Assembly (NCBI GenBank): GCA_946894095.1
Contig: OX335651.1
Location: 15,274,501 to 15,338,500 of the forward strand
Source: Incurvaria masculella
Lineage: Eukaryota; Arthropoda; Insecta; Lepidoptera; Incurvariidae
DNA length: 64,000 nt
Direction of reading: 5' to 3'
The notes under the pieces were generated by a model. The model saw nothing but the letters and a program-made list of their open reading frames with translations. It had not been told where the DNA came from and did not search any database. Shown here piece after piece: positions 9,157 through 34,663 of this stretch; within the stretch, counting starts at the first letter, position 1; every line of letters begins with the position of its first letter. The translations under genes were made by a program, and so were the position numbers.

Positions 9157-9306
9157 GTTTTAATTTTTTTTTTTTTATGTGACCTGACATGGATTGCTAA
9201 TACCACACAACTACCGTTATGATATTAGCCCAATACACCACATTCCCGAAGGAATTAGGTGCCATGCCAGGACCTTCCCTTTATGAGCACGGCTACATTG
9301 AACTGG
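9157..9306 (-). repeat. SINE, 3' half interrupted by the LTR retrotransposon
   Basis: Minus-strand SINE: the A tail appears as the T run at about 9164-9177, then TGTGACCTGACATGGATTGC, GATATTAGCCCAATACACCA and GGCTACATTGAACTGG. The sequence stops at the LTR boundary and resumes at 20941, as shown by comparison with the uninterrupted copy at 42110-42500. Confidence 0.85.
9303..9306. repeat. Left target site duplication CTGG
   Basis: CTGG occurs immediately before the left LTR and again immediately after the right LTR (20941-20944). The empty site, seen in other SINE copies as TTGAACTGGATGG, has it once. A 4-bp duplication fits Ty3/gypsy integration. Confidence 0.92.
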
Positions 9307-9377
9307 TGTAGCGTCCGCCGCGCCGCCTTATGACGTAACGATACCAGGGGCGAGATTATCTTTTTGCATCGAGCGCG

Positions 9378-9555
9378 AGACAAGGACGCAACGGCATCGC
9401 TCCCAGCAAGGTGCGAGCGAGATGCTGCACCGGATCTCGGCACTGGTGCACAAACAGCGCCGTTTGAGTTAAATTCGTTAGACACAAGACAAGGACGCAA
9501 CAGCAGCGCTCCCAGCAAGGTGCAAGCGAGATGCTGCACCGGATCTCGCCACTGG
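9378..9555. repeat. Imperfect tandem duplication inside the LTR U3
   Basis: The segment GACAAGGACGCAAC... to CACTGG at 9378-9446 recurs at 9487-9555 (offset 109) with few differences. The same pair lies in the right LTR at 19626-19694 and 19735-19803. Duplicated U3 blocks are often enhancer-like in retroelements; a role here is inference. Confidence 0.75.
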
Positions 9556-10603
9556 GGCCTTAGCGACGCCGATTGGGAATGTCGAAACACGCGGCAATCC
9601 TCCGCCGCGCCGCCCGCGGGACACGGGCAGAAGCGGGCAGCACCTTGAGACGCACGGTCGCGCCACGTGCTCCGACGAGTGCGGGTCCCGAGGCCGCGGA
9701 GTCAGGCGACATTAACAAAAACGTGAAAACTTTCGCTCCCAAAGTTGGTTGAGCTGTCCGCGTACCACCCTTCGCGAATATCGGTGCGCCCGCCGTGCCG
9801 CCGTGTTCCGTATCCGTGTGAGCAGCCGGGCGTGATCTACTTCGAGGCCACACCCACGCCTTCCGATGTCTTCAGCCCGTGGACCAGCAGCCACAGCTTC
9901 CGCCGTGCCCTGTCACAGTCGCCGGTCCGACATCTTCAACACGTAGACCCACCACCACAGCGTCGCCGTACGCCTGCTGGATCCCCGCACGGTACCTATA
10001 CTCTAACGCCAGCCCCCCCCGTAGAAATCTACGATGAAACCGCAAAGAGCGTCTATCAGGACCACCCATTGAAGCAGAACACCGCCCATTCGACTACGCA
10101 CGACCTCGGACCCACCCCGAGCTCCCGGCATGGAACCCCGGCCATTTGGATATTAGGTTAGGCTAAGGCCGTGTTAGAACACCGCCTTGATTGTTAATTA
10201 TGTATAGTCTTCTTTGTGCTTCTAAATATAGGCTATTTTAGGTAGATGGTTAGATCGCCACAGCCCAATTTTCTTAATTTGTAGGTGTCTTAAATAGGAC
10301 AATGCCAGGGTGTATTTTTGATTGTTTGTTTGTGTTTTGTGCCTCAAATGGTCTATAATTTATTACATCTTTTTTTTGTACCTACTGTAGTCTGTTAATT
10401 CGCTTTTCATCGATTCCCTACAAATTCACCCATTCCCAACCTGTGAACAGCCTCCCCCACACGCTGCAGAGCTGCCACCAAGTACATTCATGAGATCCCT
10501 CCTCTACACATCACACTTTATACACCGGCGTAACCACCTGGATATCTTGTAGCCTAATTAAATTACAACGAACCACCGGAAGATCCCTGGGCCCTTGAAA
10601 CCC

Positions 10604-10610
10604 TATATAT
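10604..10610 (+). promoter_or_regulatory. Candidate LTR TATA box
   Basis: TATATAT in CCCTATATATGTCTG. It is the only TATA-like motif close to the LTR 3' end and recurs in the right LTR at 20852-20858. Confidence 0.4.
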
Positions 10611-10694
10611 GTCTGTCGGTCTGTCCGTGGCAACCACTCTTACTTACTCATTTCTTCTAATGCATCACACCCTTTAAATTAACAAGGCTACAAT

Positions 10695-10709
10695 TGGCAC
10701 CCGAACTGG
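10695..10709 (+). other. Primer binding site
   Basis: TGGCACCCGAACTGG starts 2 bp after the LTR. The TGG start complements a tRNA CCA end. TGGC.CCCGAAC resembles the tRNA-Lys(UUU)-type site with one substitution, but I cannot name the primer tRNA with certainty. Confidence 0.7.
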
Positions 10710-11483
10710 TTTATTTTAATTTCCTATTTGTATATATTAATTATATTTATTTTATTATGGTACGCCTCACTTGTTTTATACACTACAAATTAACTCTCCA
10801 TTTCAGCCCTGACGGTAAGCAAATAGCGAATTAACAAAACTGAATATTAAATGTGTCAATAACGAGTTGTGTCCACCAACGTAATAGGTATATAGGTACT
10901 TACGCACGTTATTTCATTTTAGAATATCGAGTCTTGCAATAGCGCACGAAGGCGGTAACTCTCGCTCTTATAGGTGTGCACTGTTTCCTTAGGTTTTTAG
11001 GTCATCATATATTGGAAGCCGAGAGCAGAGCATATTCTTTGTCTTTCTCTCATTTCTTATAAATATAGCTTATAGCACGTTGCGCGTGGACAAATCGCGA
11101 GCACGTGAGCACGCGACCGGCCAGTCCCGCGATCCGGAACTTCTTGGGTTAGTATGAAACAACGAAATATAAAAAACTGAAATGTGCTGTTTTATTTAAG
11201 TGTATAATTTTATGTGTTCTTGATGCTCATGTATTGTGTGTGTAAATAACGTGTGTAAATTTTTTTTTTTTCTTCTCGCTTTAATCTCTTGCGTTGACCA
11301 CGTAGGTTATATTTGAAAGTCAGGTTAACTACGTGTCTATTGTTAATCACTCATTAAAACAAACCTTAATCTGTAGTTATCAGGCTTTCGTCTCGTTCGA
11401 TCTAGTCGCGTCTCGAGTTAACGGAAATTTACGTAAATTTTTTTTTAACTCATTTTTAAGTAATTTATTATAGGTACCACAAA
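10710..11483 (+). other. Retrotransposon 5' leader
   Basis: About 770 bases between the primer binding site and gag, with several short upstream ATG frames. The segment TATAAATATAGCTTATAGC near 11059 resembles the conserved loop of the 3' pseudoknot units, but without complementary flanks. Packaging signals normally lie in this region of such elements; none can be identified by eye. Confidence 0.5.
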
Positions 11484-12827
11484 ATGGAAAGCCAGGACCA
11501 TTCCGTGTTCATTGACATGCCAGAGGACCAATTAATGATGTATGACAATCAATCCATAAATTCACAGTCGGAGGTTAATGTTGTAACACGTAGTGGTGGT
11601 GATTATGGACCCAGTTTTTTTTCCTTGGATAACGAATCCAACCAGTCATCTTCAAGTACCGTGGTAAAACCAGAAGGTCTCCACGAAAATTGTGTGTTCA
11701 ATAAACATTACTACAACTTATCGTCCTGGAATCTAAAATATAGTGGTGAAACAGATGTACGTGAATTCATTGCCCGTGTCGAAGAGCTTACTTATGCGCG
11801 GAAATCTAACTATGACATCGTACTGAGATGTTTCATTGATTTGTTGTCGGGCACTGCTTTGAAATGGTTCCGTACCGTGAGGGATGGAGTTACGAATTGG
11901 GACCAGCTTAAGAAAGCCTTGTTAGAGGAGTACGATAATATCGACTACGTTTTCGACACGGAATCCCGTATTCGCTCGTTAAAACAAAAACCTAACCAGA
12001 AGTTGTCAGATTTTGTAACAGATGTGAATGATTTGGCAAATAAAATCAAGGGTCAAATTTCCGATATCATGCTTTTCGAAATAATAAAACGAAATATGTT
12101 ACCTAAGTACAATCAATGTCTGATTTACGGTACGATTAAAAATACTTGCGACCTTCTGGCGTATGGTAAGAAAATTGAACGTTTTAATAATGAGGCCCCC
12201 TTCAGTAATATCAAATCAGAGGTGTCCAAAGTTAACAGTTATATTCCTAAAGCCGAGACAGTGTCGACTTCAAACGCAAACGCTTGTCTCAAATGTAAAA
12301 ATACGGGCCATTCTTTTAAAAACTGCCCGAATATTTTAATACCTATCTGCTTTGACTGCGGCAAGCTAAATGTCACGTCCAAAAATTGTCCCACATGTGC
12401 CGCGAAAGGTAACCAAAATTCGAGGTCTACGCCTCAGCCCCACTCTCGGTTCACATCTCGTGCTGAAGCGTCACACCAACGCAGCGGACAACAATACCCG
12501 CCGTGGTATAACAATAATGCAGGCCAATTTAGTGTTAGGCAACAGAATCCTCCAACTTATATTAACAACGCCAACAATAACAATTTTAATGGCGGTCAAT
12601 ATCCTCGTTTTAGGCCAGTCTATTCAGGCCAATACAATAACTCTTACCGCCCTAGGGGTCAGCAATACCGACCTTATTTTCCGAACGCGAGTCACCCCCC
12701 GGCGACTCACTTTCACTCATCGAACTACGCCGATAGCGCGCGCGAGCTGCCGCATAACAATATTCGAGCGATCGAGGCCCCCCCATCCCCCCCTCAATCT
12801 TCCGCTTCTCATACAAAAAACGGGTAA
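11484..12827 (+). CDS. gag: Retrotransposon Gag
   Basis: Structural protein of the element, 447 residues, which should form the particle and bind the RNA genome. The ATG lies in a good context (CAAAATGG). Residues about 75-230 resemble the retrotransposon Gag capsid domain (YSGETDVREFI, then FIDLLSGTALKWFR, then a helical stretch). A perfect CX2CX4HX4C zinc knuckle lies at residues 268-281 (C268, C271, H276, C281). A second one at 289-302 keeps the three cysteines (C289, C292, C302) but has Val297 in place of His. The C-terminal tail is rich in Asn, Gln, Tyr and Arg, as in nucleocapsid regions. The stop TAA (12825-12827) comes 4 bases after an A AAA AAC heptamer, so a fraction of ribosomes should shift to pol. 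Confidence 0.93.
   Translation: MESQDHSVFIDMPEDQLMMYDNQSINSQSEVNVVTRSGGDYGPSFFSLDNESNQSSSSTVVKPEGLHENCVFNKHYYNLSSWNLKYSGETDVREFIARVEELTYARKSNYDIVLRCFIDLLSGTALKWFRTVRDGVTNWDQLKKALLEEYDNIDYVFDTESRIRSLKQKPNQKLSDFVTDVNDLANKIKGQISDIMLFEIIKRNMLPKYNQCLIYGTIKNTCDLLAYGKKIERFNNEAPFSNIKSEVSKVNSYIPKAETVSTSNANACLKCKNTGHSFKNCPNILIPICFDCGKLNVTSKNCPTCAAKGNQNSRSTPQPHSRFTSRAEASHQRSGQQYPPWYNNNAGQFSVRQQNPPTYINNANNNNFNGGQYPRFRPVYSGQYNNSYRPRGQQYRPYFPNASHPPATHFHSSNYADSARELPHNNIRAIEAPPSPPQSSASHTKNG
12815..12821 (+). promoter_or_regulatory. -1 ribosomal frameshift slippery heptamer
   Basis: AAAAAAC is read in the gag frame as A AAA AAC, the classic X XXY YYZ form. The gag stop follows after GGG. The pol frame is exactly -1 and is open through this point with no stop before 12908. 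A downstream stimulatory stem is not obvious to me. Confidence 0.85.
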
Positions 12828-15800
12828 ACGCACCGGCGACTTATACCTCCTCGGAAGAATGGCATGACTGGTTAAAATTTGTTCATGACTTTCCGAAAGT
12901 TAGCCCGGTGCTATCAAACCAACATGGCGATAGGAGGCCTTACGTTCATTTCAAGTTAAATAATAAGGATTTTACAGCTCTATTAGATAGTGGAGCCGAG
13001 ATAAATGTGTTTGGTAATAATTCACATCTTGAAATACTGAATATGGGATATACTTTAGACGAGTCCAAAATTTGTTCCGCCTCTACGGCAGACGGGACTA
13101 AACAATTTAGTCCAGGCTCAATCCATTGCAATATCGTGGTCGACGGCATTGAAATTCCACTTACTTTTGAAGTTATTCCAGAAATTAAATCTGATTGCAT
13201 TTTAGGCACAGAATTTTGGGAAAAGTCCGGTCTATCAAAAAAAATTTCCGGCTGTATAAATAAAAAAATCACTTTCTCCATTCCGTCAGAATTTCAGATT
13301 TCTTCATTAAACATTGATGGGGCCATTAAAAAAATTAAAGATATTATTTCCAGCTTAGATATCATTAAAAGTAAAATTTCTAGCTTTAACAGCCCCCGTT
13401 CGAGCAAACATTATAAGTTGTTGGATGAATCACTTACTAAGTTATTGTTAGCTTTGGACGACATTCCGTCTAATAATAACCCGGACATTAAGTCGGCCCG
13501 CAAAATAGCCGTCGCTTCTGTGCAAGAGTCAATAGATGTCTTAGAACGCAAAGCGTATCGGCCGAATTCTCCCCCGCCCACCCTCCCTACGTACGTGCCG
13601 CTCGCGTCGGTCGGTGAAACCAAGCCTTCTTCCGGAGCGCTCAATGCCACACATCGCGCTCAGAGCGCACAGCCCCCGCATTCTGTTTCTAACGCGCAAC
13701 AGCTGCATTCTATTTCTAACTCGAGTAATTGTAAACTTTCTCCAGATGAACAATTAATATTAAATAAAACGATAGAAAAGTTTGAGTCCATATCTTTTGA
13801 AAAATGTGGCCTAGGTCGAACGCATCTTCTTGAATATGAAATTGATACGGAAGGTCCTCCAATCAAACAAAGGTTCTATCGCATGTCACCCTACAAACAA
13901 AAGTTAGTGGACCAATTAATAGATGAAATGATAGACTTGGATGTTCTGGAACCATCATCGTCACCCTGGGCCAGTCCTGTGTTAGTAGTACCCAAGAAGG
14001 ACAACTCCTTCCGCCTTTGCATGGACTCTCGTAAACTAAACGCTGTTACAAAAAAATGTAGTTATCCTCTCCCTCGCATAGATAACATTCTTGATAATTT
14101 AAAGGACGCAAAATATATTTCTTCCATTGACTTATCTAAGGCATTTCTTCAGCTCCCTCTGGCAGAATCGGCTAAGGAAAAGACAGCGATTATCTCACAG
14201 GGCCGAGGATTATTACAATTTAAGGTGGTCCCTTTTGGGCTATCTAACGCACCCCAGAATTTACAGCGCCTGGTCGATGCGTTACTACCAGGTGCAGAAT
14301 TCGATGACCATGTGTTTGGTTATCTAGACGACCTAATTATAATTTCCAACAATTTTGCAGACCATATTTCTTACCTTGACAAAGTTTACGAACGTTTACA
14401 TTTCGCTAACCTAACAGTTAACCTAAAGAAGTGTGAATTTCTAAAATCTGAGCTGAAATATCTTGGTTACGTTATAAACGAGTTCGGCTTAAAGACTGAC
14501 CCAGCCAAAGTGGAGGCAGTGAAAAACTTTCCAACACCCAAATGTGTCAAAGATGTACGCAGTTTCTTAGGACTAGCTTCCTACTACCGCCGTTTCATCA
14601 AAAATTTCTCTACTATTGCGGCGCCCCTGTCCAATCTCACAAGTTCCATCTCTGAAAAATATTCAAAATTTAATTGGACACCTGAGGCAGAGGCAGCCTT
14701 CGTAAAATTAAAATCCGCCCTCACTTCAGCCCCAGTTTTATGTGTTCCCAATTTTGAAGCCCCCTTTTTCCTCCACTGTGATGCAAGTTTAGTGGGAATT
14801 GGTTCAGCAGTTGTACAAAAGGACGCAAATTTTCAGGAACACCCCGTAGCTTACTATTCGAGAACGCTAACAAAACAAGAGCAAGGTTTTTCTACCACCG
14901 AAAGGGAATTACTTAGTATTGTGGAAGCTACCACACATTTTAGACATTACCTAGAAGGAACTCATTTCACGATTGTGACTGACCATGAAAGCTTGAAATG
15001 GTTATATAAACTCGAGAACCCCACGGGCAGGCTCGCCCGTTGGTCTACTAGGCTCTCGCAATTCTCCTTTGATATCGTCCACAAGAAAGGCAAACTCCAT
15101 GTTGTCCCGGACGCGTTGTCACGTATTAAGATCGAAAGTGTAAACTCATCCAACCCAAACGTTCCTATAACTGATGAGTGGTTTTTGAAAATAAAAAATA
15201 GTATACAAAAATCACCCGCTAGTTACCCGAACTTTAGGTTGGAAGACGATAAGCTCTTTCGTTTTTGCAAACCTAAATTCAATCTTTTAAATTCATTTTC
15301 ATGGAAAGAAGTTATTCCCGCTGACCATATTAAACAGCTAGTAACTGCTACTCACGAGAGCCCTCTATCGGCACACCTTGGCCCATTTAAATGTTTTAAA
15401 AAGTTACAACTGAATTATTACTGGCCCAACATGTTTCCTTCAATCAAATCAATCTTAAGTTCGTGTGAAGTTTGTTTGGCATTTAAAGCTAATAATCAGC
15501 TACCCCATGGTAAAATGTTATTTCAGAAGAAGGTCTACGCTCCAATGCAAACATTAAGTTGCGATCTCATTGGTCCTCTGCCGAGGTCTTATTCAGGACA
15601 CGCATACTTGCTTACTGTAGTTGACATTTTCTCCAAATTTGTATGGTTATGCCCACTTAGAAAAGCCAATAGTAAGTCAATAATTAAATTCATTGAAAAT
15701 GAGATTTTCCTAGTCTATGGCGTGCCATATTGTATGATAAGTGATAATGGCGTGCAGTTCGTCTCTAACGAGTTTCAGGCACTTTTAAAAAGGTATAATA

Positions 15801-16396
15801 TCCCTAAATTTTTCAAAAATTGTGTCTATTTCCCACAAAACAATCCAGTGGAAAGACACAATCGTACCATTGAATTAGCCATTGCTTCTTATGTTGAGAC
15901 AGACCATAGAAACTGGACTAAAAATTTACCTAAGATTCAGGCAGCTTTAAATAGCCATGTCAGCTTAGCCCATGGGTTTTCACCCAATTTTGTAATGACA
16001 GGTAGAGAACTCATCTTCGATGGTCGATTCCATAAATTTGCAGATTTCACTAAATTAGAGGAGTTAATTATCGATGGTCGCGACGAATGGACCACTAGCT
16101 TAAAATCATTGGCAAGCGTTTTTCATCAAATCCAAGCGAACCTGACTCAAGCATATCAAGCTAATGCCAAACGCTACAACCTTCGTCGTTCAGTGATACA
16201 TTTCAATGTAGGTGACATAGTCTGGCGTCGATCCCATGTTCAATCGGACGCCGCTAAATTCTTTTCAAATAAATTAGCCCCTCGTTTTATTAAATCTGTG
16301 GTCCTTGAGAAAAAATCTGAAAATACATACATTTTGGGCAACATGGATGGTTCCAAGGCAGGCCTAATACATGTGAGTGATATTATTAAATACTAA
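12821..16396 (+). CDS. pol: Retrotransposon Pol (protease-RT-RNase H-integrase)
   Basis: Enzymes for replication and integration, made as the -1 extension of Gag. No ATG lies near the frame start; the first usable start-like codon is GTG at 12908, used here as residue 1 of 1162. Protease: LLDSGAEINVFG with active-site D27. Reverse transcriptase: about 320-560 with SSIDLSKAFLQ, VPFGLSNAP and catalytic YLDD at 472-475. RNase H: D625 in HCDAS, then TERELL, VTDHESLKWL and DALSR. Integrase: HHCC zinc finger H816, H823, C853, C856 and catalytic D886, D946, E982 (D35E spacing). A C-terminal segment with KLAPRFIKSVVLEKKSENTY resembles a GPY/F module. All key residues are present and the frame is unbroken, so activity is plausible. 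Confidence 0.95.
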   Translation, partial: RVNAPATYTSSEEWHDWLKFVHDFPKVSPVLSNQHGDRRPYVHFKLNNKDFTALLDSGAEINVFGNNSHLEILNMGYTLDESKICSASTADGTKQFSPGSIHCNIVVDGIEIPLTFEVIPEIKSDCILGTEFWEKSGLSKKISGCINKKITFSIPSEFQISSLNIDGAIKKIKDIISSLDIIKSKISSFNSPRSSKHYKLLDESLTKLLLALDDIPSNNNPDIKSARKIAVASVQESIDVLERKAYRPNSPPPTLPTYVPLASVGETKPSSGALNATHRAQSAQPPHSVSNAQQLHSISNSSNCKLSPDEQLILNKTIEKFESISFEKCGLGRTHLLEYEIDTEGPPIKQRFYRMSPYKQKLVDQLIDEMIDLDVLEPSSSPWASPVLVVPKKDNSFRLCMDSRKLNAVTKKCSYPLPRIDNILDNLKDAKYISSIDLSKAFLQLPLAESAKEKTAIISQGRGLLQFKVVPFGLSNAPQNLQRLVDALLPGAEFDDHVFGYLDDLIIISNNFADHISYLDKVYERLHFANLTVNLKKCEFLKSELKYLGYVINEFGLKTDPAKVEAVKNFPTPKCVKDVRSFLGLASYYRRFIKNFSTIAAPLSNLTSSISEKYSKFNWTPEAEAAFVKLKSALTSAPVLCVPNFEAPFFLHCDASLVGIGSAVVQKDANFQEHPVAYYSRTLTKQEQGFSTTERELLSIVEATTHFRHYLEGTHFTIVTDHESLKWLYKLENPTGRLARWSTRLSQFSFDIVHKKGKLHVVPDALSRIKIESVNSSNPNVPITDEWFLKIKNSIQKSPASYPNFRLEDDKLFRFCKPKFNLLNSFSWKEVIPADHIKQLVTATHESPLSAHLGPFKCFKKLQLNYYWPNMFPSIKSILSSCEVCLAFKANNQLPHGKMLFQKKVYAPMQTLSCDLIGPLPRSYSGHAYLLTVVDIFSKFVWLCPLRKANSKSIIKFIENEIFLVYGVPYCMISDNGVQFVSNEFQALLKRYNIPKFFKNCVYFPQNNPVERHNRTIELAIASYVETDHRNWTKNLPKIQAALNSHVSLAHGFSPNFVMTGRELIFDGRFHKFADFTKLEELIIDGRDEWTTSLKSLASVFHQIQANLTQAYQANAKRYNLRRSVIHFNVGDIVWRRSHVQSDAAKFFSNKLAPRFIKSVVLEKKSENTYILGNMDGSKAGLIHVSDIIKY

Positions 16397-16649
16397 AAAA
16401 AAAATTAATTAAAACTTTTGTTGAACTGGTTTGCATTTCTTTGATATATTTGGTCATAAATTTAAACAATAACTTTAAGTAACAATAAGTTACAAAATTT
16501 TTAAATGGTTAAATTCTCTATTAAATTGTATCTTGTGTCACACGCCCTAAAAAGGAGCCAGGTGTCAAGGGATACATGGATGACGGTAATTCTTGGAGAA
16601 GTTTTTTTAGTAAAACAAGCTATACTCCAATAGTTAGGTTAGGGTCGGT
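16397..16649 (+). other. Start of the post-pol non-coding region
   Basis: AT-rich. At 16584-16630 lies a degenerate relative of the following pseudoknot units: CGG at 16584, TTGGAG (16593-16598) complementary to CTCCAA (16625-16630), and AAGCTATA just before the second strand. A partner for stem 1 is missing. Confidence 0.5.
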
Positions 16650-16719
16650 CGTGCGCGGTTGTTTTTTTGGAATATTTTTCGAACGCACGTTAATATCTAA
16701 AGCCTTATTGAAAAAATAT
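16650..16719 (+). other. Pseudoknot unit 1
   Basis: Stem 1: CGTGCG 16650-16655 with CGCACG 16684-16689. CGGTT at 16656. Stem 2: ATATTTTTCGAA 16672-16683 with TTGAAAAAATAT 16708-16719 (10 of 12 pairs). AAGCCTTA at 16700-16707. Confidence 0.75.
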
Positions 16720-16721
16720 CC

Positions 16722-16777
16722 CGTGAACGGTATTGGCAAGGGAATTCACGTTAATAAATAAAAAGCCCTATCCTTGC
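16722..16777 (+). other. Pseudoknot unit 2
   Basis: Stem 1: CGTGAA 16722-16727 with TTCACG 16745-16750. CGG at 16728. Stem 2: GCAAGG 16736-16741 with CCTTGC 16772-16777. The conserved loop reads AAGCCCTA at 16763-16770. Confidence 0.8.
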
Positions 16778-16778
16778 T

Positions 16779-16828
16779 CACGGACGGTTACGTGGGAATC
16801 CGTGTTATAAATCTAAGCCTTATCCCGC
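16779..16828 (+). other. Pseudoknot unit 3
   Basis: Stem 1: CACGGA 16779-16784 with TCCGTG 16799-16804. CGGTT at 16785. Stem 2: GTGGGA 16792-16797 with TCCCGC 16823-16828 (one G-U pair). Single A between at 16798. AAGCCTTA at 16815-16822. Confidence 0.85.
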
Positions 16829-17027
16829 ATCTAGGTGTTCGGTCACAAATCATGCCGACACACTACCTAGGTTAGATTCGTTTTGGTATGTTTATTTAAG
16901 TTTTAGTATATGTCTTGTGCTTGGAAATTTTTGTCTTTGGAAAAAAAAAAAATATTTTGTCTTTTAAAAAAAAAATGTGCTTGTGTCACAATGTACTATT
17001 GGGTACACGTGTGTCCTGGGCGATATG

Positions 17028-17076
17028 GAACGCGGTCGAGTTAACGTTCTTTGTTATAAATTAAAGCCTTATCGAC
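17028..17076 (+). other. Pseudoknot unit 4
   Basis: Stem 1: GAACG 17028-17032 with CGTTC 17045-17049. CGG at 17033. Stem 2: GTCGA 17035-17039 with TCGAC 17072-17076, overlapping the last G of CGG. AAGCCTTA at 17064-17071. The weakest of the seven. Confidence 0.65.
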
Positions 17077-17082
17077 TCACCG

Positions 17083-17142
17083 GTGCGCGGTTTTTTATGG
17101 TATTTTTGAAACGCACGTTAAACGCCCAAGCCTTATTCAAAA
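17083..17142 (+). other. Pseudoknot unit 5
   Basis: Stem 1: GTGCG 17083-17087 with CGCAC 17112-17116. CGGTT at 17088. Stem 2: TTTTGAA 17104-17110 with TTCAAAA 17136-17142. Single A at 17111. AAGCCTTA at 17128-17135. Confidence 0.8.
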
Positions 17143-17147
17143 TATCC

Positions 17148-17202
17148 CGCAGGACGGTTGGTTGAGAATCCTGCGTAGCAAAAATAAAGCCTTATCTCTC
17201 AA
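17148..17202 (+). other. Pseudoknot unit 6
   Basis: Stem 1: CGCAGGA 17148-17154 with TCCTGCG 17169-17175. CGGTT at 17155. Stem 2: TTGAGA 17162-17167 with TCTCAA 17197-17202. Single A at 17168. AAGCCTTA at 17187-17194, here two bases before the stem-2 strand. Confidence 0.82.
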
Positions 17203-17237
17203 ACTTATGTGTACGGTCACTCTTGTGTCGTCACAGC

Positions 17238-17283
17238 TGGAGGCGGTTGTAGAACCTCCATATAAATATAAGCCTTATCTACA
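17238..17283 (+). other. Pseudoknot unit 7
   Basis: Stem 1: TGGAGG 17238-17243 with CCTCCA 17255-17260. CGGTT at 17244. Stem 2: TGTAGA 17248-17253 with TCTACA 17278-17283. Single A at 17254. AAGCCTTA at 17270-17277. Confidence 0.85.
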
Positions 17284-18596
17284 CTCCACATTGTTCGAAT
17301 CCGTTAAAATCAGTTCGACAAATTCTTAGTTAGGTTAGGGTCTTTCACAGACGTCCGCGAAGCAAACCAGCCTCGCGTTCGTCGGGTTTTTTTTTTCTTC
17401 TCTCTCTTTCTTTTACCTCCACCCCACTTAACCTCACCCCTCACCCTATTCCCTAGCAAGCTTGCGCCCTCCCACCTAACACCAACCACCTTACCCAACC
17501 CAGTATGATAGATAATTTAAAAGAAAGGATACGACAGGATAAGTGAATGATGATGTAAGCAAGTGGTTCCTACCCTTTTCCCCATATCTGTCCTCTGTCA
17601 CTAGTAAGTGGTCTCAACCGAGTCACTTACGTAGACAAGGCATACAGCGCATTCACCGCGCTTTATTTTATGTTAGTTCTTTTGGTTATTCTCTATTTTT
17701 TTTTCTCTTTTCTTTTTTTTCTTTTAACAGCTATAGTGTACTGTAACGGGCAACACGTCGCGTCAGACACGTTCAGCTGAAAACACATAATGGTGTATTT
17801 CGTGATAGATGCCGCCTCCCATGAGGGGGGCAAAATTCTATAGAATCTCTAGGTGCAGGCCATACCCCATTTAACGCTTCTCGACAGGCGGTGCACTAGG
17901 CACCTACCTAGGGCCAAGATGAGACACGAGACAGTTCGCGTGTCTTGATCTGAAGGGGTTTTACGAGTTCTCACTCTGAGGCTCACCAATTACAACCAGT
18001 TTTTTATGTTAAGTCGGCATAATAAGACTGGTTGGGTTGCATTATTTAGTTTTAAGTTCCAAACAACCATACCCTCCCAACACATGTTCTCTGTACATAC
18101 CTGTATATAAAAATACTTATAAGTCGTATTTAGATAAAATTTACTCTAGGTAAGAACAAGGATATGACATTTATAAAGCGTCCCTTATAAAAAGGCACTT
18201 ATTATTTTGGATTTTGAGCGTCTACGGGTTAAATGTTAATGACGTTTCCCATAGGATTCTATTCGGTTAATGTAAACCATTTTGAAGACTGCTGAGTCTT
18301 ATTTGCCAAATCATTTCATGTGTCTCAAAACGCGTTCGTGAGTGTTGGTAAAACTTTCGTATTAATTGTACAATTGTAAATATTGCTAATTTTAGTTTAA
18401 ACTTAAAATTAATTTATAGGCGCACAATAGCGACCAATAAGAGTAGGAACTCTAAATAAATATGGCATAGTGAGCCACTGAACATATAAACTCTCGGAAA
18501 GACAAAATTAAACACGGATTTTGAGAAAATTCAAATTGTATTAAGATATAAACATGCTAATTATATAAATACAATTAAAATACTTAAGCGTAGGTA
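17284..18596 (+). other. Post-pol non-coding region, middle
   Basis: No envelope-like or other long frame. Pyrimidine-rich tracts lie at about 17385-17465 and 17690-17730. TTAGTTAGGTTAGGGTC near 17326 echoes TAGTTAGGTTAGGGTC near 16631, upstream of unit 1, a further sign of duplication in the array region. Nothing else recognised. Confidence 0.5.
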
Positions 18597-18597
18597 C

Positions 18598-18627
18598 TTA
18601 GTTAGTTAGTTAGTTAGTTAGTTAGTT
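18598..18627. repeat. TTAG microsatellite
   Basis: About seven TTAG units inside the retrotransposon. It is not the insect telomeric TTAGG. Confidence 0.8.
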
Positions 18628-18756
18628 CGCGTTCAGAGTAACACATCTTAAGTAGGATGTCGCTAGACACATTATAGTATTTAGAAAGTATACGGAATGT
18701 TAGAAATATAATGTCCGGAACACACAGTGGTTCCTACTATCGCTTTAATAATGCTG

Positions 18757-19130
18757 GTGGACACAACTTCGCTTAATAATGTTTTCTCATACTTGTCTTA
18801 ATCCTTATTATTGAAAATACACTCAAGGACAAAACTTCCTTTATTGATGTTTTTTTTTCTTAAATTATTTGTCTTAATTCTTATTATCGAAAGTACACTC
18901 ATAGATACAACTTCTTAAGTGATGTTTATTTTTATACGTATCTCAATTTTCCTTATTATTGAAAGTACACTCAAGGACACAACTTGTTCTCTTTATGCCT
19001 TGCTTTTCTTGTTTTTATTTAAAAAAAAAAAAGACATTCATGAATATAATTTCGGCTAGTAATGTTTCTTCTCATACTCGTCTTATACTTTTTATTAATA
19101 ATGAAAGTCAACTTAAAGGATATAAGTCAT
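18757..19130 (+). repeat. Degenerate tandem repeat, about 72-bp unit
   Basis: Four to five copies of a unit with CACTCAAGGACACAACTTC, a GATGTTT T-rich stretch, GTCTTAAT(T/C)CTTATTATTG and AAAGTA. The last copies are more diverged and one holds an A run near 19021. They lie between pol and the 3' LTR. Confidence 0.75.
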
Positions 19131-19499
19131 TGGGCTGTGGCTTCCATAGGATTGTAAATATGTGTTAGCTTGTACATGTGTGTAAATATTTTACTGATTG
19201 ATAAAAATGTTACTTATATGTTAATGTCATAACACTGTGTTCGATATTAATTCTATTTCTGTTGTCATTTAGATGTTTTAGCATTCCATTGGGCTTGGCT
19301 TATAGTATTGTAAACCTGTTGAATGTCTAGAAATTTAAAACAGTTTTGCCAATCGATATCACATTGATGTAAAGATTATCATTAGTAACATTTTGGTTAG
19401 CTTCAGTATTAATTATTACTTTTGCACTGTCAATTATAGTTCAGCAATTAATGTTATAGTCACTGTGACATTCTGGTCACTTTGTTAAATGTCTAGGGT

Positions 19500-19554
19500 A
19501 CTTAAATTCTTTTTTTTTTGCTTGTTTTTTTTTGTTTTTTAAGTAACCGGGTAT
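19500..19554 (+). other. T-rich tract before the 3' LTR, no clear polypurine tract
   Basis: The bases before the right LTR are T-rich (two runs of 8 or more T), then AAGTAACCGGGTAT. A purine tract, which normally primes plus-strand synthesis there, is not visible. Confidence 0.6.
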
Positions 19555-20940
19555 TGTAGCGTCCGCCGCGCCGCCTTATGACGTAACGATACCAGGGGCG
19601 AGATTATCTTTTTGCATCGAGCGCGAGACAAGGACGCAACGGCATCGCTCCCAGCAAGGTGCGAGCGAGATGCTGCACCGGATCTCGGCACTGGTGCACA
19701 AACAGCGCCGTTTGAGTTAAATTCGTTAGACACAAGACAAGGACGCAACAGCAGCGCTCCCAGCAAGGTGCAAGCGAGATGCTGCACCGGATCTCGCCAC
19801 TGGGGCCTTAGCGACGCCGATTGGGAATGTCGAAACACGCGGCAATCCTCCGCCGCGCCGCCCGCGGGACACGGGCAGAAGCGGGCAGCACCTTGAGACG
19901 CACGGTCGCGCCACGTGCTCCGACGAGTGCGGGTCCCGAGGCCGCGGAGTCAGGCGACATTAACAAAAACGTGAAAACTTTCGCTCCCAAAGTTGGTTGA
20001 GCTGTCCGCGTACCACCCTTCGCGAATATCGGTGCGCCCGCCGTGCCGCCGTGTTCCGTATCCGTGTGAGCAGCCGGGCGTGATCTACTTCGAGGCCACA
20101 CCCACGCCTTCCGATGTCTTCAGCCCGTGGACCAGCAGCCACAGCTTCCGCCGTGCCCTGTCACAGTCGCCGGTCCGACATCTTCAACACGTAGACCCAC
20201 CACCACAGCGTCGCCGTACGCCTGCTGGATCCCCGCACGGTACCTATACTCTAACGCCAGCCCCCCCCGTAGAAATCTACGATGAAACCGCAAAGAGCGT
20301 CTATCAGGACCACCCATTGAAGCAGAACACCGCCCATTCGACTACGCACGACCTCGGACCCACCCCGAGCTCCCGGCATGGAACCCCGGCCATTTGGATA
20401 TTAGGTTAGGCTAAGGCCGTGTTAGAACACCGCCTTGATTGTTAATTATGTATAGTCTTCTTTGTGCTTCTAAATATAGGCTATTTTAGGTAGATGGTTA
20501 GATCGCCACAGCCCAATTTTCTTAATTTGTAGGTGTCTTAAATAGGACAATGCCAGGGTGTATTTTTGATTGTTTGTTTGTGTTTTGTGCCTCAAATGGT
20601 CTATAATTTATTACATCTTTTTTTTGTACCTACTGTAGTCTGTTAATTCGCTTTTCATCGATTCCCTACAAATTCACCCATTCCCAACCTGTGAACAGCC
20701 TCCCCCACACGCTGCAGAGCTGCCACCAAGTACATTCATGAGATCCCTCCTCTACACATCACACTTTATACACCGGCGTAACCACCTGGATATCTTGTAG
20801 CCTAATTAAATTACAACGAACCACCGGAAGATCCCTGGGCCCTTGAAACCCTATATATGTCTGTCGGTCTGTCCGTGGCAACCACTCTTACTTACTCATT
20901 TCTTCTAATGCATCACACCCTTTAAATTAACAAGGCTACA
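19555..20940 (+). repeat. 3' LTR
   Basis: Same length and, as far as I can read, same sequence as the 5' LTR (constant offset of 10248). It ends GGCTACA and is followed directly by the CTGG duplication at 20941-20944. Confidence 0.95.
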
Positions 20941-21225
20941 CTGGATGGAAAACACGGACAATTTTTCATTGCCGCTTTGACCATCTTTTCATTCAATGCG
21001 ATGGTACCAACCCGGGCGGGCTCAAATCCTACCACCTAGTAGGGGAAGGGGACCTACAGTTTTACATGGATTCCGAACCATGGAGCAGCTCGCATACGTG
21101 ACGAAATGCACTTATCGAACTCTGAAAGAGAAAGACAGTGGTGCAAGTTGGTATTGAACCCGGGCCTCTGGTACGCTAGGCCGGTCCCCGCGCCACTAGG
21201 CTACGAGCCGCTTAATAAGGGGTTT
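20941..21225 (-). repeat. SINE, 5' half with tRNA-like head
   Basis: Continuation of the SINE cut at 9306: CTGGATGGAAAACACGGAC, GCGATGGTACCAACCCGGGC, then a block with GAAAGAGAAAGACAGTGG. On the minus strand the head has TAGCCTAGTGGCGCGG (A box) and GGGTTCAATACC (B box). This head differs from the 5S-like head of the 4877 copy although the body is shared. Confidence 0.8.
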
Positions 21226-22006
21226 CTATCAATATTAAAACTTTTAGGGCCTTTTTTACTTACCGCTGATGCAATCAATACCAGCACAAGATAATCCGCA
21301 TTTTAGTAATAAAGGCCCTTTAAATGTCGATTAAAAAAAAATCGGCACTTGGTTAAAATTCAGGCTTAAAACATACAATACTAATATGATTACAACAATA
21401 CTACTGATTATTGTTTTCCCTAACGAAAACTCTGCAAAGTAATATTACTTGTAATAGGCTTCACAAAATCAATTTTCCTTAACTTTCGGTCTATAGCTCA
21501 GTATCAAAGGTGAAGCGAAGTTTGAAGGAAATTGAATTTTCTGCCGCTGTAACGCCGCCCCTCCGCTCCTCCCCCGCGCCCCATCGCCGCGCCGCGTCGG
21601 TCCGACTCCGGTTGAAAAACCGCATCCAAAGTTACCTAAATGAGATTTTCTTCTATTACCGCTATTTACACACTTTTGAAAAGGTTATTCTATTCAGGGC
21701 CGATTTTTCAATCCTCACATAGGACTTCTCGGACTTTACGTTTGTCAAAAGACGGATAGTATTGAGAATAATATCTTCTATCGCAATTATCTGACTGTAT
21801 TTTACCAATAAAAACATGGACTTACTATACGGGATGGATAAGTAGAGACAGAAATAAATCCGTCCAATAGTTATCGGGCTGATTATCAGACTGTTGAAAA
21901 ATCGGCCCTTAGGATTTAGTCAGAAATTATGGGATGCGAGGCCTAAGGGGTTATTTAATCAATTCATTGGAAAAATAGACCGGGGTAGATAACTAGATAC
22001 GGTTTG
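21226..22006. other. Non-coding, nothing recognised
   Basis: A GC-rich patch at about 21540-21620 has no plausible exon boundaries with a domain I know. Confidence 0.4.
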
Positions 22007-22830
22007 AGAAGCACATGAAATCCGAAATGATTTTTTTTTTCTCAGAAATATATAATTTCATGTTCATATGCTTACATTAAGTTTGCAACATTTAGCGGGG
22101 CCCGGAAGATAGAAAAAAAAATTAAAATGTATTAAAAAATATATATCTCCTAAACAATTATTTAGAAACGGTATTAAAAAATGTATATGTTAAGTCTTTT
22201 AAGGCGTAATGTAACCGTGAATTTGCAACAATTTTGTAATTACGGAAATGTATTTAAAAAAATGTTTTTACTAAAAAAAATCTATGCCGCGAACCTAACT
22301 TGCTATTGCTATATTTCTTTCTAGAATATGTAAAAGCAAATTAAATTCTTTAGAAACTATACAACGAACGATTTTATACGTATTTAGAATTTTTTGTTTA
22401 GCTTTTGTGTGAATGTAAACGTTATAAATGAAAAAAAATTCTAATATTTGCAACATTTTACTAATTTCACAGAATATAGAGTTTGCGGTCAGTTTCCAAT
22501 TTCAGAAAATAAAATAGAATTTTCATTATTTGCTTTGCAGATATTAAATATTACAGATATTAAAAGTACAAAAAAAAATTTACACAGTTCCGTAAATAAG
22601 AAATTGTTGCAAATTCACAGTAATATTACACCTAAAATTAGCTAACATATAACATTTTTAAATAACATTTCTAAATATTTGTTTAGGAGATATCCTTTTT
22701 TAAACATATTTCATATTTTATTTCTATCTTCCGGACCCCCCAAAATGTTGCAAACTTAATGTACACACGTCCACATGAAATACTACGTTTATGAGAAAAA
22801 AAATTGCATTTCGGATTTAATGTTTTTCTA
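22007..22830. mobile_element. Foldback or long-TIR DNA element
   Basis: Arms of about 245 bp (22007-22251 and 22583-22830) are inverted copies with an estimated 80% identity. Markers are AAATCCGAAATG at the outer ends, ACATTAAGTTTGCAACATTT, CCGGAAGATAGAAA, ATCTCCTAAACAA and GTGAATTTGCAACAATTT. The 330-bp core is AT-rich with no transposase. Confidence 0.75.
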
Positions 22831-22853
22831 AGTGCTGATTTAAGGCTAAAGTT

Positions 22854-22932
22854 CCTGGAGTAAAACCAGCCAAGCGAGAATAGAACTCGCACTCGAAGGG
22901 ATCCGTAACATCGTACACGATTTAACACAAAA
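22854..22932 (-). repeat. Fragment of the AGGGTTCCGTACCC repeat
   Basis: Contains AACCAGCCAAGCGAGAATAG, ACTCGCACTCGAAGGGATCC and CGTACACGATTTAACAC, matching the 5' part of the minus-strand copy at 55010. Confidence 0.6.
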
Positions 22933-23159
22933 AATCGCGGAATTAATTCATGGAATGAAATTTAAATGTGTATTATGTGATGTTATAGCGAAAATAGAAA
23001 TATACAATCGGTGAAAATTTCAGCTATCTAGCTATTATATATATACCGTTGGCACTCTTTAGGTACGGAAACCTTAAAATAGGAATAGACATTTTGTTTG
23101 TGGAATTGGACATCGATTGCAAAATAACGTGTGGTACTTAGAAATCAGTGTTCACATGA

Positions 23160-23440
23160 TATTTCTCGATTCACACACTTTCATGATGTTAGCCCAACAT
23201 AACATGGGAACTATGTAGATGCCATGTTTCTCGGTGCATTAATTTAACTGCTTAGAAACAAGGTCAATTTTCCTTACAGCTTTGAGATGCTATAAGGAAA
23301 TTGAAATCAAAAATGGAATCCTACCACCCACAGATTATACGTGGAATCCAAATCACGGCCAGCCCGAACGGTCGAACGGTTACTCATTCAGAACACGACC
23401 GCGCCCAGTTTCTTAACCTCATGATTGAAACCCGCGGGTT
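23160..23440 (-). repeat. SINE with 5S-like head, degenerate
   Basis: Minus-strand copy: GATGTTAGCCCAACATAACA, GAATCCAAATCACGGCCAGC, then GTTACTCATTCAGAACACGA and GCCCAGTTTCTTAACCTCAT, which are the reversed B-box and 5S-like parts. Confidence 0.6.
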
Positions 23441-25250
23441 ACCGACTTTTGTTTTATTATAAAACCGTTTAGTATAATTGCCAATGTCCTGTTACTTAAA
23501 AAATAATCCTGTGTCCAGGTAAGTTAAGTCACTTCGGTCATTGTAAAAAAATATTATACTCAACAATCGCCAAGAAGAAACGAACTTCAAGTTTAATAAT
23601 AGAATACCTAATAGCTTCAGTAAGCCTCAAAGAACGAAAACCTCATAAAAAAATACTCGGAGCCTGAAACGGTCATAGCCTAAATAATTATTTCGGGAGT
23701 AACAAAAATGGCCACAAAGTGAAAGCCTTCACAAAATCCGACCACAAAGTATTCAGAACACAACGAAACATTCCTCTTATTTCCTTTTTAATGAAGAAGA
23801 ATAATTTACTTTGATGTAGATACGCTTTCGTCTCAATAGCTTTAAAATCCGTGTTATTTTGAGTTTTTGAATGTAGAATCTATATTGTAAATGCGATAGT
23901 GCGTTTGTTGGTGTGTTCTTCTATCACGCAGCAAGGTGCGATCTATCGACGTGATGTTTTTACATTCAGGATTTTTACGTGCCTTGAAAGAACATATTAA
24001 AGAAAAATCTACCAATAAAATCCAGTACCGTTTCTAATTTTCTTCGTAATAACATGCAACAAGACGATGTTGACATGACCAATGTAAGCTACATTGGGAA
24101 AATAAAGACATTCTAGTCCCTTTCTCTGCATGGTCGACGTCAATAAGGGATCTCAAGTTTGTTTTTTTTTTAATTATATGTAGCACGACATATGGCTTAT
24201 TGCAGGCATTCAAAGAGGTGCCTTACGACGCCCATGGGCTTTCGACATTTTACAAGGGCTGCGAAAACCTTATAAATAATTTTGAAAGCGAGCGAAAGAA
24301 GAGCACGGTGCGATGGACCAGGGATAACCTTATCTGCACCTTGTAGAGCATAGAAAAAATCTTGTTTTTTTAATAATAATAAGAAAATAATCTTCAAGAA
24401 TAAAACTTTTTTATAAGTAATATTACTTGCGGTTTCCATCACTTATTCCGATGAGGTAAAATTTGTCTAAAATTACCTCTTTATCTCGTTGTTTACTGTA
24501 CAGTCTTTTCCAGAATTTTCTCTTTTCTACCTAAGAAGTTTCATAATGTACTTACTGAAACAGCATGCTACAATTTGAGCTGACGGCTTTTCAACGGACC
24601 TTAAATTAGTTCCAGGGAAAAACGAATACTATAATACTTAGGGCCGAATGCACGAAAGGTAAACAACATAAAAATCAACGTCAACGTATGATTGAACACG
24701 TCACTTTTTATGGACAGTATGAAAGGGAGCCGTGTTTAATCGGTGATTTATTTTTATCCTGCGGTTATGCACTCCGCCCGCACAAAAAAAAGACGGCACA
24801 TATGTATTTGAATAATTTTATATTATATTTTCCAAAAGATAGAATAAAACTACCAACTATTTGAATGTTCAATCTTTGAAGTCAATGTCTGCAACGCAGG
24901 TAAAGCGTTAAATCAATGTATGTAGGTATAATCTTAAACACTGTGTTAGTAGGAGGCATGGACTGGGAGGGACTGTAGGATAATTCCGAGTTATGGGTAT
25001 AAAGCCGCGTGCGAAAAAAAAGAAATACCCGCGAATAGTATGTTTTTCTAGTTCGGTTCCAGCTTTGCAGTATATTCGTAAAGTAGTTCTGTTTATAGAG
25101 ATCTTTCTTTTATTAATGTGTCCTTCCTTCACGATCGATTATGCATACATACTTTCTTTGATCAGTGTGATATGCACTCGAAATAAGTCTCGTACCTGTT
25201 TAGTCCGAAAAAGTATATTTACTTATACCAACTATTTATATAAAAGGTGT
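23441..25250. other. Intronic or intergenic, nothing recognised
   Basis: AT-rich, only short frames on both strands. TTTAGTCCGAAAAAGTATAT near 25200 resembles TTTAGTACGAGAAAGTATAT near 2962, an old repeat. Confidence 0.4.
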
Positions 25251-26214: not shown

Positions 26215-26665
26215 ATTGGACATGGGTGGCTAATACCAAACTGAACATCACATATTAGCATAACACACCACATGGATGCTAGGACCTTCCTTGTATTGCT
26301 CGGCTACATTGGACTGGATGGAATTTTCAGTGCCGCTTCGACCATCAATGCGATGGTACCAACCCGGACGGGATTAACCCTACCACCTGGTAAGTAAGGA
26401 AGGGGTCTTACAGTTTTACGTGGAATCCGAACCACGGCCACATGGATGCTAGGACCTTCCTTGTATTGCTCGGCTACATTGGACTGGATGGAATTTTCAG
26501 TGCCGCTTCGACCATCAATGCGATGGTACCAACCCGGACGGGATTAACCCTACCACCTGGTAAGTAAGGAAGGGGTCTTACAGTTTTACGTGGAATCCGA
26601 ACCACGGCCAGCCTCAACGGGTGAAAATGGTCACCCATCCAGAACCCAATTGCGCTCAGAGATTT
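26215..26665 (-). repeat. SINE carrying an exact 170-bp internal tandem duplication
   Basis: Minus-strand SINE body. 26271-26440 and 26441-26610 are identical by reading (CATGGATGCTAGGACC... to ...GAACCACGGCCA). The head after 26610 is short and diverged, with TCACCCATCCAGAACCC as the reversed 5S-like C box. Confidence 0.85.
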
Positions 26666-34089: not shown

Positions 34090-34663
34090 GCATTTTAAAG
34101 ATTTCTCTAAAAATAGTAGCCTGCGCAACCTCATCAGAGAGTTGAATTTAATGTTGACTCTGTTCGCAGACATGACAACATCGCAGATCGAGGCTGAGAA
34201 CACCCAGATGACGAACGATCTGTACCGACTGCTCAAGAAGTACAGCGGCTTACGGAAATTCCTCAGAGAGTTCAATGTAATGTTGACCCTGTTCGCAGAC
34301 ATGACAACATCTCAGATCGAGGCTGAGAACACCTAGATAATGGTCGATCTTTACCGACAGCTCAAGAAGGACAGTGGCCTGCGGAACCTTATCACAGAGT
34401 TAAATTTAATGTTGACCTTGTTCTCAGACATGACAACATCGCAGGTCGAGGCTGAGAACACCCAGATGACGAAAGATCTTTACCGACTGCTCAAGAAGTA
34501 CAGTGGCCTGCGGAACCTTATCACAGAGTTGAATTTAATGTTGACCCTGTTCGCAGACATGACAACATCGCAGATCGAGGCTGAGAACACCCAGATGACG
34601 AACGATCTCTACCGACTGCTCAAGAAGTACAGTGGCCTGCGAAACCTCATTAGAGAGCTGAAG
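34090..34663 (+). repeat. Tandem array of a 129-bp exon-containing unit
   Basis: Four full copies plus a truncated leading one. ATGTTGAC recurs at 34151, 34280, 34409 and 34538, exactly 129 bp (43 codons) apart, so the reading frame is kept. Each copy has a CAG acceptor-like end followed by ACATGACAACATC. Exon-like parts start at 34170, 34299, 34428 and 34557. Only the last has a good donor (AAG GTACTAAG). Copy 1 keeps a weak AAT GTAATG. Copies 2 and 3 have lost GT. Copy 2 has an in-frame TAG at 34334. Confidence 0.85.
34557..34663 (+). CDS. Internal coding exon of the unrecognised gene (copy 4)
   Basis: A 107-bp exon between acceptor TGTTCGCAG and donor GTACTAAG. The first two bases complete the codon split by the phase-1 donor at 25848, giving D, then MTTSQIEAENTQMTNDLY, RLLKKYSGL and RNLIRELK. 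It ends in phase 0, matching the 36142 exon. The heptad-like Leu/Ile spacing suggests coiled coil. Copies 1-3 upstream could act as alternative exons only if their weak or lost donors were used. Confidence 0.75.

Follow-up and report, generated by a model that had tools for sequence, protein, structure and literature searches.

Few LTR retrotransposons, Ty1, Ty3 and Evade among them, have had their RNA structure mapped. For Ty3, two single pseudoknots were predicted, in GAG and POL (PMC11381356), and the 3'-UTR of Evade carries an ENE triple helix that raises RNA stability and mobility (PMC12501189). In RNA viruses, tandem pseudoknots are described from the 5' UTR of foot-and-mouth disease virus (FMDV), where they number two to four, vary in copy number and are partly redundant (PMC9203018), and the pseudoknot domain of tobacco mosaic virus (TMV) acts in replication and translation (PMC4683447). 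The plant-virus xrRNA of the dianthovirus/luteovirus class (xrRNA-D) is composed of helices P1 and P2 with conserved L1 and L2B, and two of the three bases located just upstream of the 3' side of its pseudoknot are conserved above 97% (PMC6299227). The coremin xrRNA consists of a 4-bp hp1 with a YGAD or YGNNAD loop, a spacer of 8-10 nt and a separate hp2, and its motifs also exist in repeated form (PMC10520033). Among the literature matches listed, no title refers to tandem, consecutive or arrayed pseudoknots in a retrotransposon.

The window, that is the whole 64 kb stretch of DNA analysed here, contains an element in which the domains protease, RT, RNase H and integrase follow gag in this order between two LTRs, an organization that identifies a Ty3/gypsy-type LTR retrotransposon. 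Its parts are the following.

9307-10692, + strand: 5' LTR, TGTAGC...GCTACA, 1,386 bp, identical to 19555-20940 at all 1,386 positions
11460-12827, + strand: gag reading frame, stop to stop, with Retrotrans_gag (Pfam PF03732, E 7.8e-10) and one CX2CX4HX4C zinc knuckle spotted by eye in the translation
12758-16396, + strand: pol reading frame, stop to stop, 1,212 aa, with Pfam protease, BAG domain, RT, RNase H and integrase
16397-19554, + strand: non-coding region between pol and the 3' LTR, housing the array, with no ORF of at least 150 aa
19555-20940, + strand: 3' LTR, matching the 5' LTR at 1,386/1,386 positions

The full identity of the LTRs, 1,386 bp each, marks the insertion as young. The sequence CTGG borders the outer sides of both LTRs (9303-9306 and 20941-20944) and is a probable 4-bp target duplication. 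The original prediction had located the array after pol, in the place of an env gene; indeed pol ends at 16396 and, at the 150-aa cutoff of the ORF list, no ORF is present in the 3,158 bases that lead to the 3' LTR. Among the 120 of 437 pol relatives that were listed, the nearest shows 67% identity, and the named ones come from Plutella (moth), Homalodisca (leafhopper), beetles, a spider, a pseudoscorpion, rotifers and an alga; this assortment points, weakly, to a probable insect host.

Between the protease and the RT, pol contains a BAG domain of the Hsp70 co-chaperone type (13364-13549, residues 203-264 of pol), which matches Pfam PF02179 (E 3.7e-10) and, in the PDB, BAG3 (E 4.6e-10) and BAG4 (E 3.1e-9). 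When this region (pol residues 185-300) was compared with proteins of 0.55 to 1.75 times the length of pol, none of 600 candidates matched at E 0.001, and no paper on a BAG domain in a retrotransposon polyprotein was present among the literature matches listed. It is possibly a captured host domain. The 3' non-coding region of the element also contains a 76-base repeat in 2.5 copies (18798-18985). Elsewhere in the window were observed a long inverted repeat with arms of 178 bp that are 81% complementary (22007-22829), perhaps a foldback element; a 170-base unit in two copies of 100% identity (26268-26610), due to a recent duplication or to an assembly effect; and a 129-base repeat of 4.2 copies with 87% matches (34115-34662), whose unit length is a multiple of three.

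The array extends from 16650 to 17283, and all seven units that had been predicted there are present. They are arranged in two blocks, units 1-3 and units 4-7, 199 bases apart. Every unit follows the same plan: stem 1, CGG, stem-2 strand, stem-1 partner, an A-rich loop ending in AAGCCYTA, and stem-2 partner.

16650-16721, + strand: unit 1; stem 1 16650-16655/16684-16689; CGG 16656-16658; stem-2 strand 16669-16683 (register uncertain); AAGCCTTA 16700-16707; stem-2 partner 16708-16721
16722-16777, + strand: unit 2; stem 1 16722-16727/16745-16750; CGG 16728-16730; AAGCCCTA 16763-16770; stem-2 partner 16771-16777
16779-16828, + strand: unit 3; stem 1 16779-16784/16799-16804; CGG 16785-16787; AAGCCTTA 16815-16822; stem-2 partner 16823-16828
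17028-17078, + strand: unit 4 (weak stem 2); stem 1 17028-17032/17045-17049; CGG 17033-17035; AAGCCTTA 17064-17071; stem-2 partner within 17072-17078
17083-17147, + strand: unit 5; stem 1 17083-17087/17112-17116; CGG 17088-17090; AAGCCTTA 17128-17135; stem-2 partner 17136-17147
17148-17202, + strand: unit 6; stem 1 17148-17154/17169-17175; CGG 17155-17157; AAGCCTTA 17187-17194; stem-2 partner 17195-17202
17238-17283, + strand: unit 7; stem 1 17238-17243/17255-17260; CGG 17244-17246; AAGCCTTA 17270-17277; stem-2 partner 17278-17283

As predicted, stem 1 is a perfect Watson-Crick helix in all seven units, of 5-7 bp, the units having been picked by a stem-1 rule. CGG follows stem 1 in 7/7 units; CGGTT is found in five units, the others being CGGTA (unit 2) and CGGTC (unit 4). 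The loop-3 core is AAGCCTTA in six units and AAGCCCTA in unit 2. When the units are aligned by structure, the helix sequences change from one unit to another while CGG and AAGCCYTA stay constant, as the original prediction had noticed.

Units 1 and 5 display 76% identity over 55 nt, which suggests an old duplication. In both (16659-16721 and 17091-17147), a U-rich loop 1 faces an A-rich stem-2 strand. U-A-U base triples of this U-rich loop/A-rich strand kind occur in telomerase RNA; units 1 and 5 could form such triples, and another possibility for unit 1 is an alternative stem 2. The whole array is bracketed by a 16-base direct repeat, TAGTTAGGTTAGGGTC, at 16631-16646 and 17327-17342, which holds two TTAGG units that resemble the insect telomere repeat. 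The possibility that units 1 and 5, together with these flanks, are telomerase-like was weighed and set aside. After units 3 and 6 stand two hairpins that resemble each other and carry a bulged T (16836-16871 and 17207-17234); they were rejected as a second covarying element, 4 of their 64 sites varying among genomic copies in a spacer-like manner.

The specificity of the unit pattern was evaluated with a descriptor composed of a stem 1 of at least 5 Watson-Crick pairs, CGG, a loop, the stem-1 partner, and GCCYTA within 45 bases. In the window, this descriptor recovers exactly the seven units on the + strand and nothing on the - strand. Of 1,000 first-order Markov sequences modelled on the region, 5 contained a single match and 995 contained none; for the whole window, 30 Markov sequences averaged 0.23 matches per strand. 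No match was obtained on either strand in 200 kb of the same genome, and loosening the core to AGCC alone gave 27 matches in the same 200 kb. Starting from the core, a stem 1 with CGG lies upstream of the word AAGCCYTA at 7/7 occurrences in the array, 0/5 in the rest of the window and 0/13 in the 200 kb sample; for the shorter word GCCYTA the values are 7/7, 0/47 and 0/109, respectively.

Stem 2 played no part in the picking of units and provides an independent test. It was scored as the best helix, with G-U allowed, between each loop and the bases that follow each core. It consists of contiguous helices of 5-11 pairs, and shuffling of single units gives p values of 0.006 to 0.047, below 0.05 in 7/7 units. 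The cognate assignment of loops to partners scores 101.5, versus a mean of 58.9 (sd 8.9), and is the best of all 5,040 permutations. The same test on stem 1, which is circular because stem 1 defined the units, leaves 2/5,040 permutations at the top, the cognate one and one other; the latter must exchange units 1 and 5 with each other, since these two share stem 1. With duplex energies, the cognate stem 2 is the most stable in 6/7 rows (strands) and 7/7 columns (partners), the exception being the strand of unit 5, which gives -6.2 with the partner of unit 1 versus -5.9 with its own. The length of stem 2 correlates with that of L1 (r = 0.95, n = 7, hand-set boundaries), which is expected if L1 spans the stem-2 groove.

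Stem 2 had been announced as complementary in all units. This is slightly generous, because in spite of p values below 0.05 in the seven units it is weak in unit 4 and of uncertain register in unit 1. Unit 4 has the weakest helix (p = 0.047), with 5 pairs including one G-U and a partner two bases past the core, and its nested fold favours another register that pairs the GG of CGG. In unit 1 the top-scoring register takes the U-run of loop 1, and the annotated strand forms 11 pairs with a 3x3 internal loop. The stem 2 of unit 5 has 10 pairs with a bulge, and the partner of unit 6 begins two bases past the core. In nested minimum-energy folds of single units, stem 1 is kept in units 1, 3, 5, 6 and 7, and units 2 and 4 favour a stem-2-type pairing. 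It is plausible that both stems form at once. The order S1-S2-S1'-S2', interleaved as in an H-type pseudoknot, is thus found in the seven units with a pairing deduced from sequence, stem 1 by the picking rule (7/7) and stem 2 at p < 0.05 (7/7).

Clustered inverted repeats may also act as DNA, bound by a host DNA-binding protein as an insulator or enhancer, and the Drosophila gypsy element has insulator-like arrays. For the present array we consider such a DNA-level feature very improbable: two interleaved inverted repeats per unit with changing arms answer the need of an RNA pseudoknot and not that of a DNA site, and because the arm sequences differ, no common DNA site would span them.

Copies of the array with 98-100% identity number at least 40 in the genome, the copy of the window included. 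The best 40 of 161 candidates from the 31 contigs (552 Mb) were compared; all belong to one young family, and the evidence between units likewise comes from one element family. In this best-matching set, where copies share ancestry, base composition is uncorrected and stem-2 borders are set by hand, a substitution is seen at 1/279 structural (paired or core) sites versus 37/611 neighbouring sites (Fisher p = 1.7e-5; 40 copies), and 1/889 circular shifts give a structural-site count as low or lower. Within the array alone, the values are 1/279 for structural and 19/355 for other sites (p = 0.00015; 5/633 shifts). The site classes were fixed after inspection of 8 copies, and the remaining 32, taken as a hold-out, give 1/279 versus 34/611 (p = 4.6e-5; 2/889 shifts). 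The contrast is weaker when the structure is set against the loops alone (1/279 versus 4/116, p = 0.028).

By class, substitutions affect 0/82 sites of stem 1, 0/21 of CGG, 1/120 of stem 2 (position 16670, in one copy) and 0/56 of AAGCCYTA, versus 2/39 sites of loop 1, 2/77 of loop 3, 11/175 of the spacers, 18/256 of the flanks and 4/64 of the side hairpins. Every structural site is kept in 39/40 copies. Columns with indels number 0 in the stems and AAGCCYTA, 1 in CGG, 2 in loop 1, 3 in loop 3, 18 in the spacers, 8 in the flanks and 0 in the side hairpins. In three copies a T is inserted at the border between CGG and the loop of unit 5; as an indel it lies outside the substitution counts. Template switching in reverse transcription or repair could have perfected imperfect inverted repeats and so mimicked covariation without any selection, a correction known for quasi-palindromes. 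We judge this extremely improbable here, since it explains neither the two interleaved pairings in seven units, nor the constant cores, nor the 1/279 versus 37/611 variable sites among copies.

The covariation among units and, independently of it, the near absence of substitutions at paired and core sites in 40 copies uphold the selected RNA fold of the original prediction. On this ground, selection has very probably maintained the seven units as H-type pseudoknots in the genomic RNA of a Ty3/gypsy-type element that was active recently. The motif being repeated seven times in one element, it constitutes an internal alignment in which covariation is readable without other species, and the genomic copies supply a built-in test of constraint.

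No named RNA class had been recognised in the units, and the searches agree: Rfam 15 gave no match at gathering score in 10000-25000. At E values up to 10 in 16400-17500, only ARRPOF and SOX2OT_exon3 were returned, both far below cutoff, off the units and spurious. The Pistol ribozyme resembles the units in topology; readings of the units as Pistol-, twister- or HDV-like ribozymes were rejected, no Rfam ribozyme matching at E up to 10. A pattern of two consecutive units retrieved 15 loci from IMG/VR. With a relaxed rule (stem 1 of at least 4 bp), five of these loci (L001, L004, L006, L010 and L011) contain 9 matches, of which 4 pass the strict 5-bp rule, two each in L001 and L011. In all 9 matches, stem 2 fails to outscore shuffled sequences (p 0.10 to 0.99), therefore no viral relative is claimed. 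Searching IMG/VR with the pol protein as well gave 8 pattern matches and no relative.

Concerning the function, for which the original prediction had suggested packaging, RNA stability, translation or host-factor binding, the reading that we tentatively prefer is that the array is a multivalent docking site for a protein on the genomic RNA, serving assembly. The varying helices would be scaffolds, and the constant CGG and AAGCCYUA would make the contacts, either with protein or inside the fold. Each knot would then show the same recognition surface, and the seven copies would give avidity. The zinc-knuckle Gag or a host RNA-binding protein would dock on the array in cis, by which the element's own full-length RNA would be chosen for particle assembly. 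The multiplicity and the constant segments on unlike helices fit a repeated binding site, Gag carries a zinc knuckle, and the seven copies argue for avidity or redundancy. Counted against docking are the nested folds of units 2 and 4 described above and the position of the array: in retroviruses, the signals for packaging usually lie close to the 5' end. For Ty1, Ty3 and HIV-1 the same source that reports the Ty3 pseudoknots places packaging sequences at the structured 5' end, and it also states that both UTRs and POL are needed for Ty3 packaging (PMC11381356).

The main rival to docking, which we hold to be possible and rather doubtful, is a roadblock to decay or to the ribosome. The knots, being mechanically resistant, would stall a 5'-3' exonuclease (Xrn1/Pacman), the ribosome or other motors, and so protect the RNA on their 3' side or leave a stable non-coding fragment, the tandem arrangement giving redundancy. 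We know of no LTR element that uses such exonuclease-decay products, and the Rfam search at E up to 10 left only the two spurious matches, neither on the units. The apical loop that pairs downstream and the conserved bases just 5' of the downstream strand do recall the plant-virus xrRNA (PMC6299227), and repetition is also known for the coremin motif (PMC10520033). The units are nevertheless without a P1-P2 pair with conserved L1 and without a coremin-type hairpin. The likeness of the units to pseudoknotted ribozymes and exonuclease-resistant RNAs, put forward in the original prediction, therefore stands for the topology and for the pairing of the loop with the 3' side, and falls for the other xrRNA features that can be checked.

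The roadblock would gain an additional argument if a third helix crossed the other two: loop 1 has an invariant GGU and loop 3 an invariant GCC, and these could pair (GGUU with AGCC in five units). Such a helix is beyond the reach of covariation because both segments are invariant. If it formed, the units might represent a new small pseudoknotted RNA class with three mutually crossing helices, each a compact, mechanically resistant knot, seven of which would shield or tag the genomic RNA; we regard this as unlikely. No such RNA-level survival device for an LTR element was present among the literature matches listed.

Two other roles deserve consideration beside docking. The array could be a 3' element that recruits host factors to enhance translation or RNA stability, in the way of the upstream pseudoknot domain of tobamoviruses or the Evade ENE. 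Its situation downstream of the coding region agrees with this, and so do the functions reported for TMV (PMC4683447) and Evade (PMC12501189) and the U-rich L1 opposite the A-rich stem-2 strand in units 1 and 5. This triplex option exists in 2/7 units only, however, and about 2.3 kb separate the array from the 3' LTR downstream of it, which places it away from the poly(A) tail. We give this role a small chance. A function in nuclear export, comparable to what constitutive transport elements do for simple retroviruses, appears quite improbable. Some constitutive transport elements sit between the last gene and the 3' LTR, and repeated sites would suit the recruitment of an adaptor. Simple retroviruses encode such elements (PMC4829213). 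The likeness drawn here is one of position, and nothing points to splicing or retention of the RNA.

If the fold is real, the array offers a small synthesizable RNA for studying how an element of this kind marks its genome, protects it or packages it, and further members could be sought with the descriptor.

The comparison with known systems can be summarized as follows. With xrRNA-D, the units have in common their short size, a hairpin loop pairing downstream (here by complementarity only) and conserved bases beside the downstream strand; unlike in xrRNA-D, P1-L1-P2 is absent and stem 1 is one contiguous helix of 5-7 bp that closes straight on the CGG loop in 7/7 units. The coremin xrRNA is likewise short and can be repeated, whereas here the loops are of 11-28 nt including CGG, the spacers are of 17-22 nt (up to 24 nt with the boundaries of the duplex-energy analysis) and the stem-2 partner pairs with the loop. 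The core pseudoknot of telomerase RNA has the H-type topology and a U-rich L1 opposite an A-rich stem-2 strand, as in units 1 and 5, but no other telomerase RNA part was seen and no Rfam match falls on the units. Evade, too, is an LTR retrotransposon whose 3' non-coding part holds a structured RNA; the ENE is however a triplex with poly(A), and the array is made of pseudoknots of which 2/7 have the U-rich L1 that could receive an A tract or poly(A). The FMDV pseudoknots also stand several in tandem in a non-coding part of a genomic RNA, a likeness drawn from their description; they belong to an RNA virus, lie in the 5' UTR and number 2-4 copies. In tobamoviruses, the domain comprises three pseudoknots adjoining the tRNA-like end. 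Although it belongs to plant RNA viruses, this upstream domain shares with the array the consecutive pseudoknots and their place in the 3' non-coding region.
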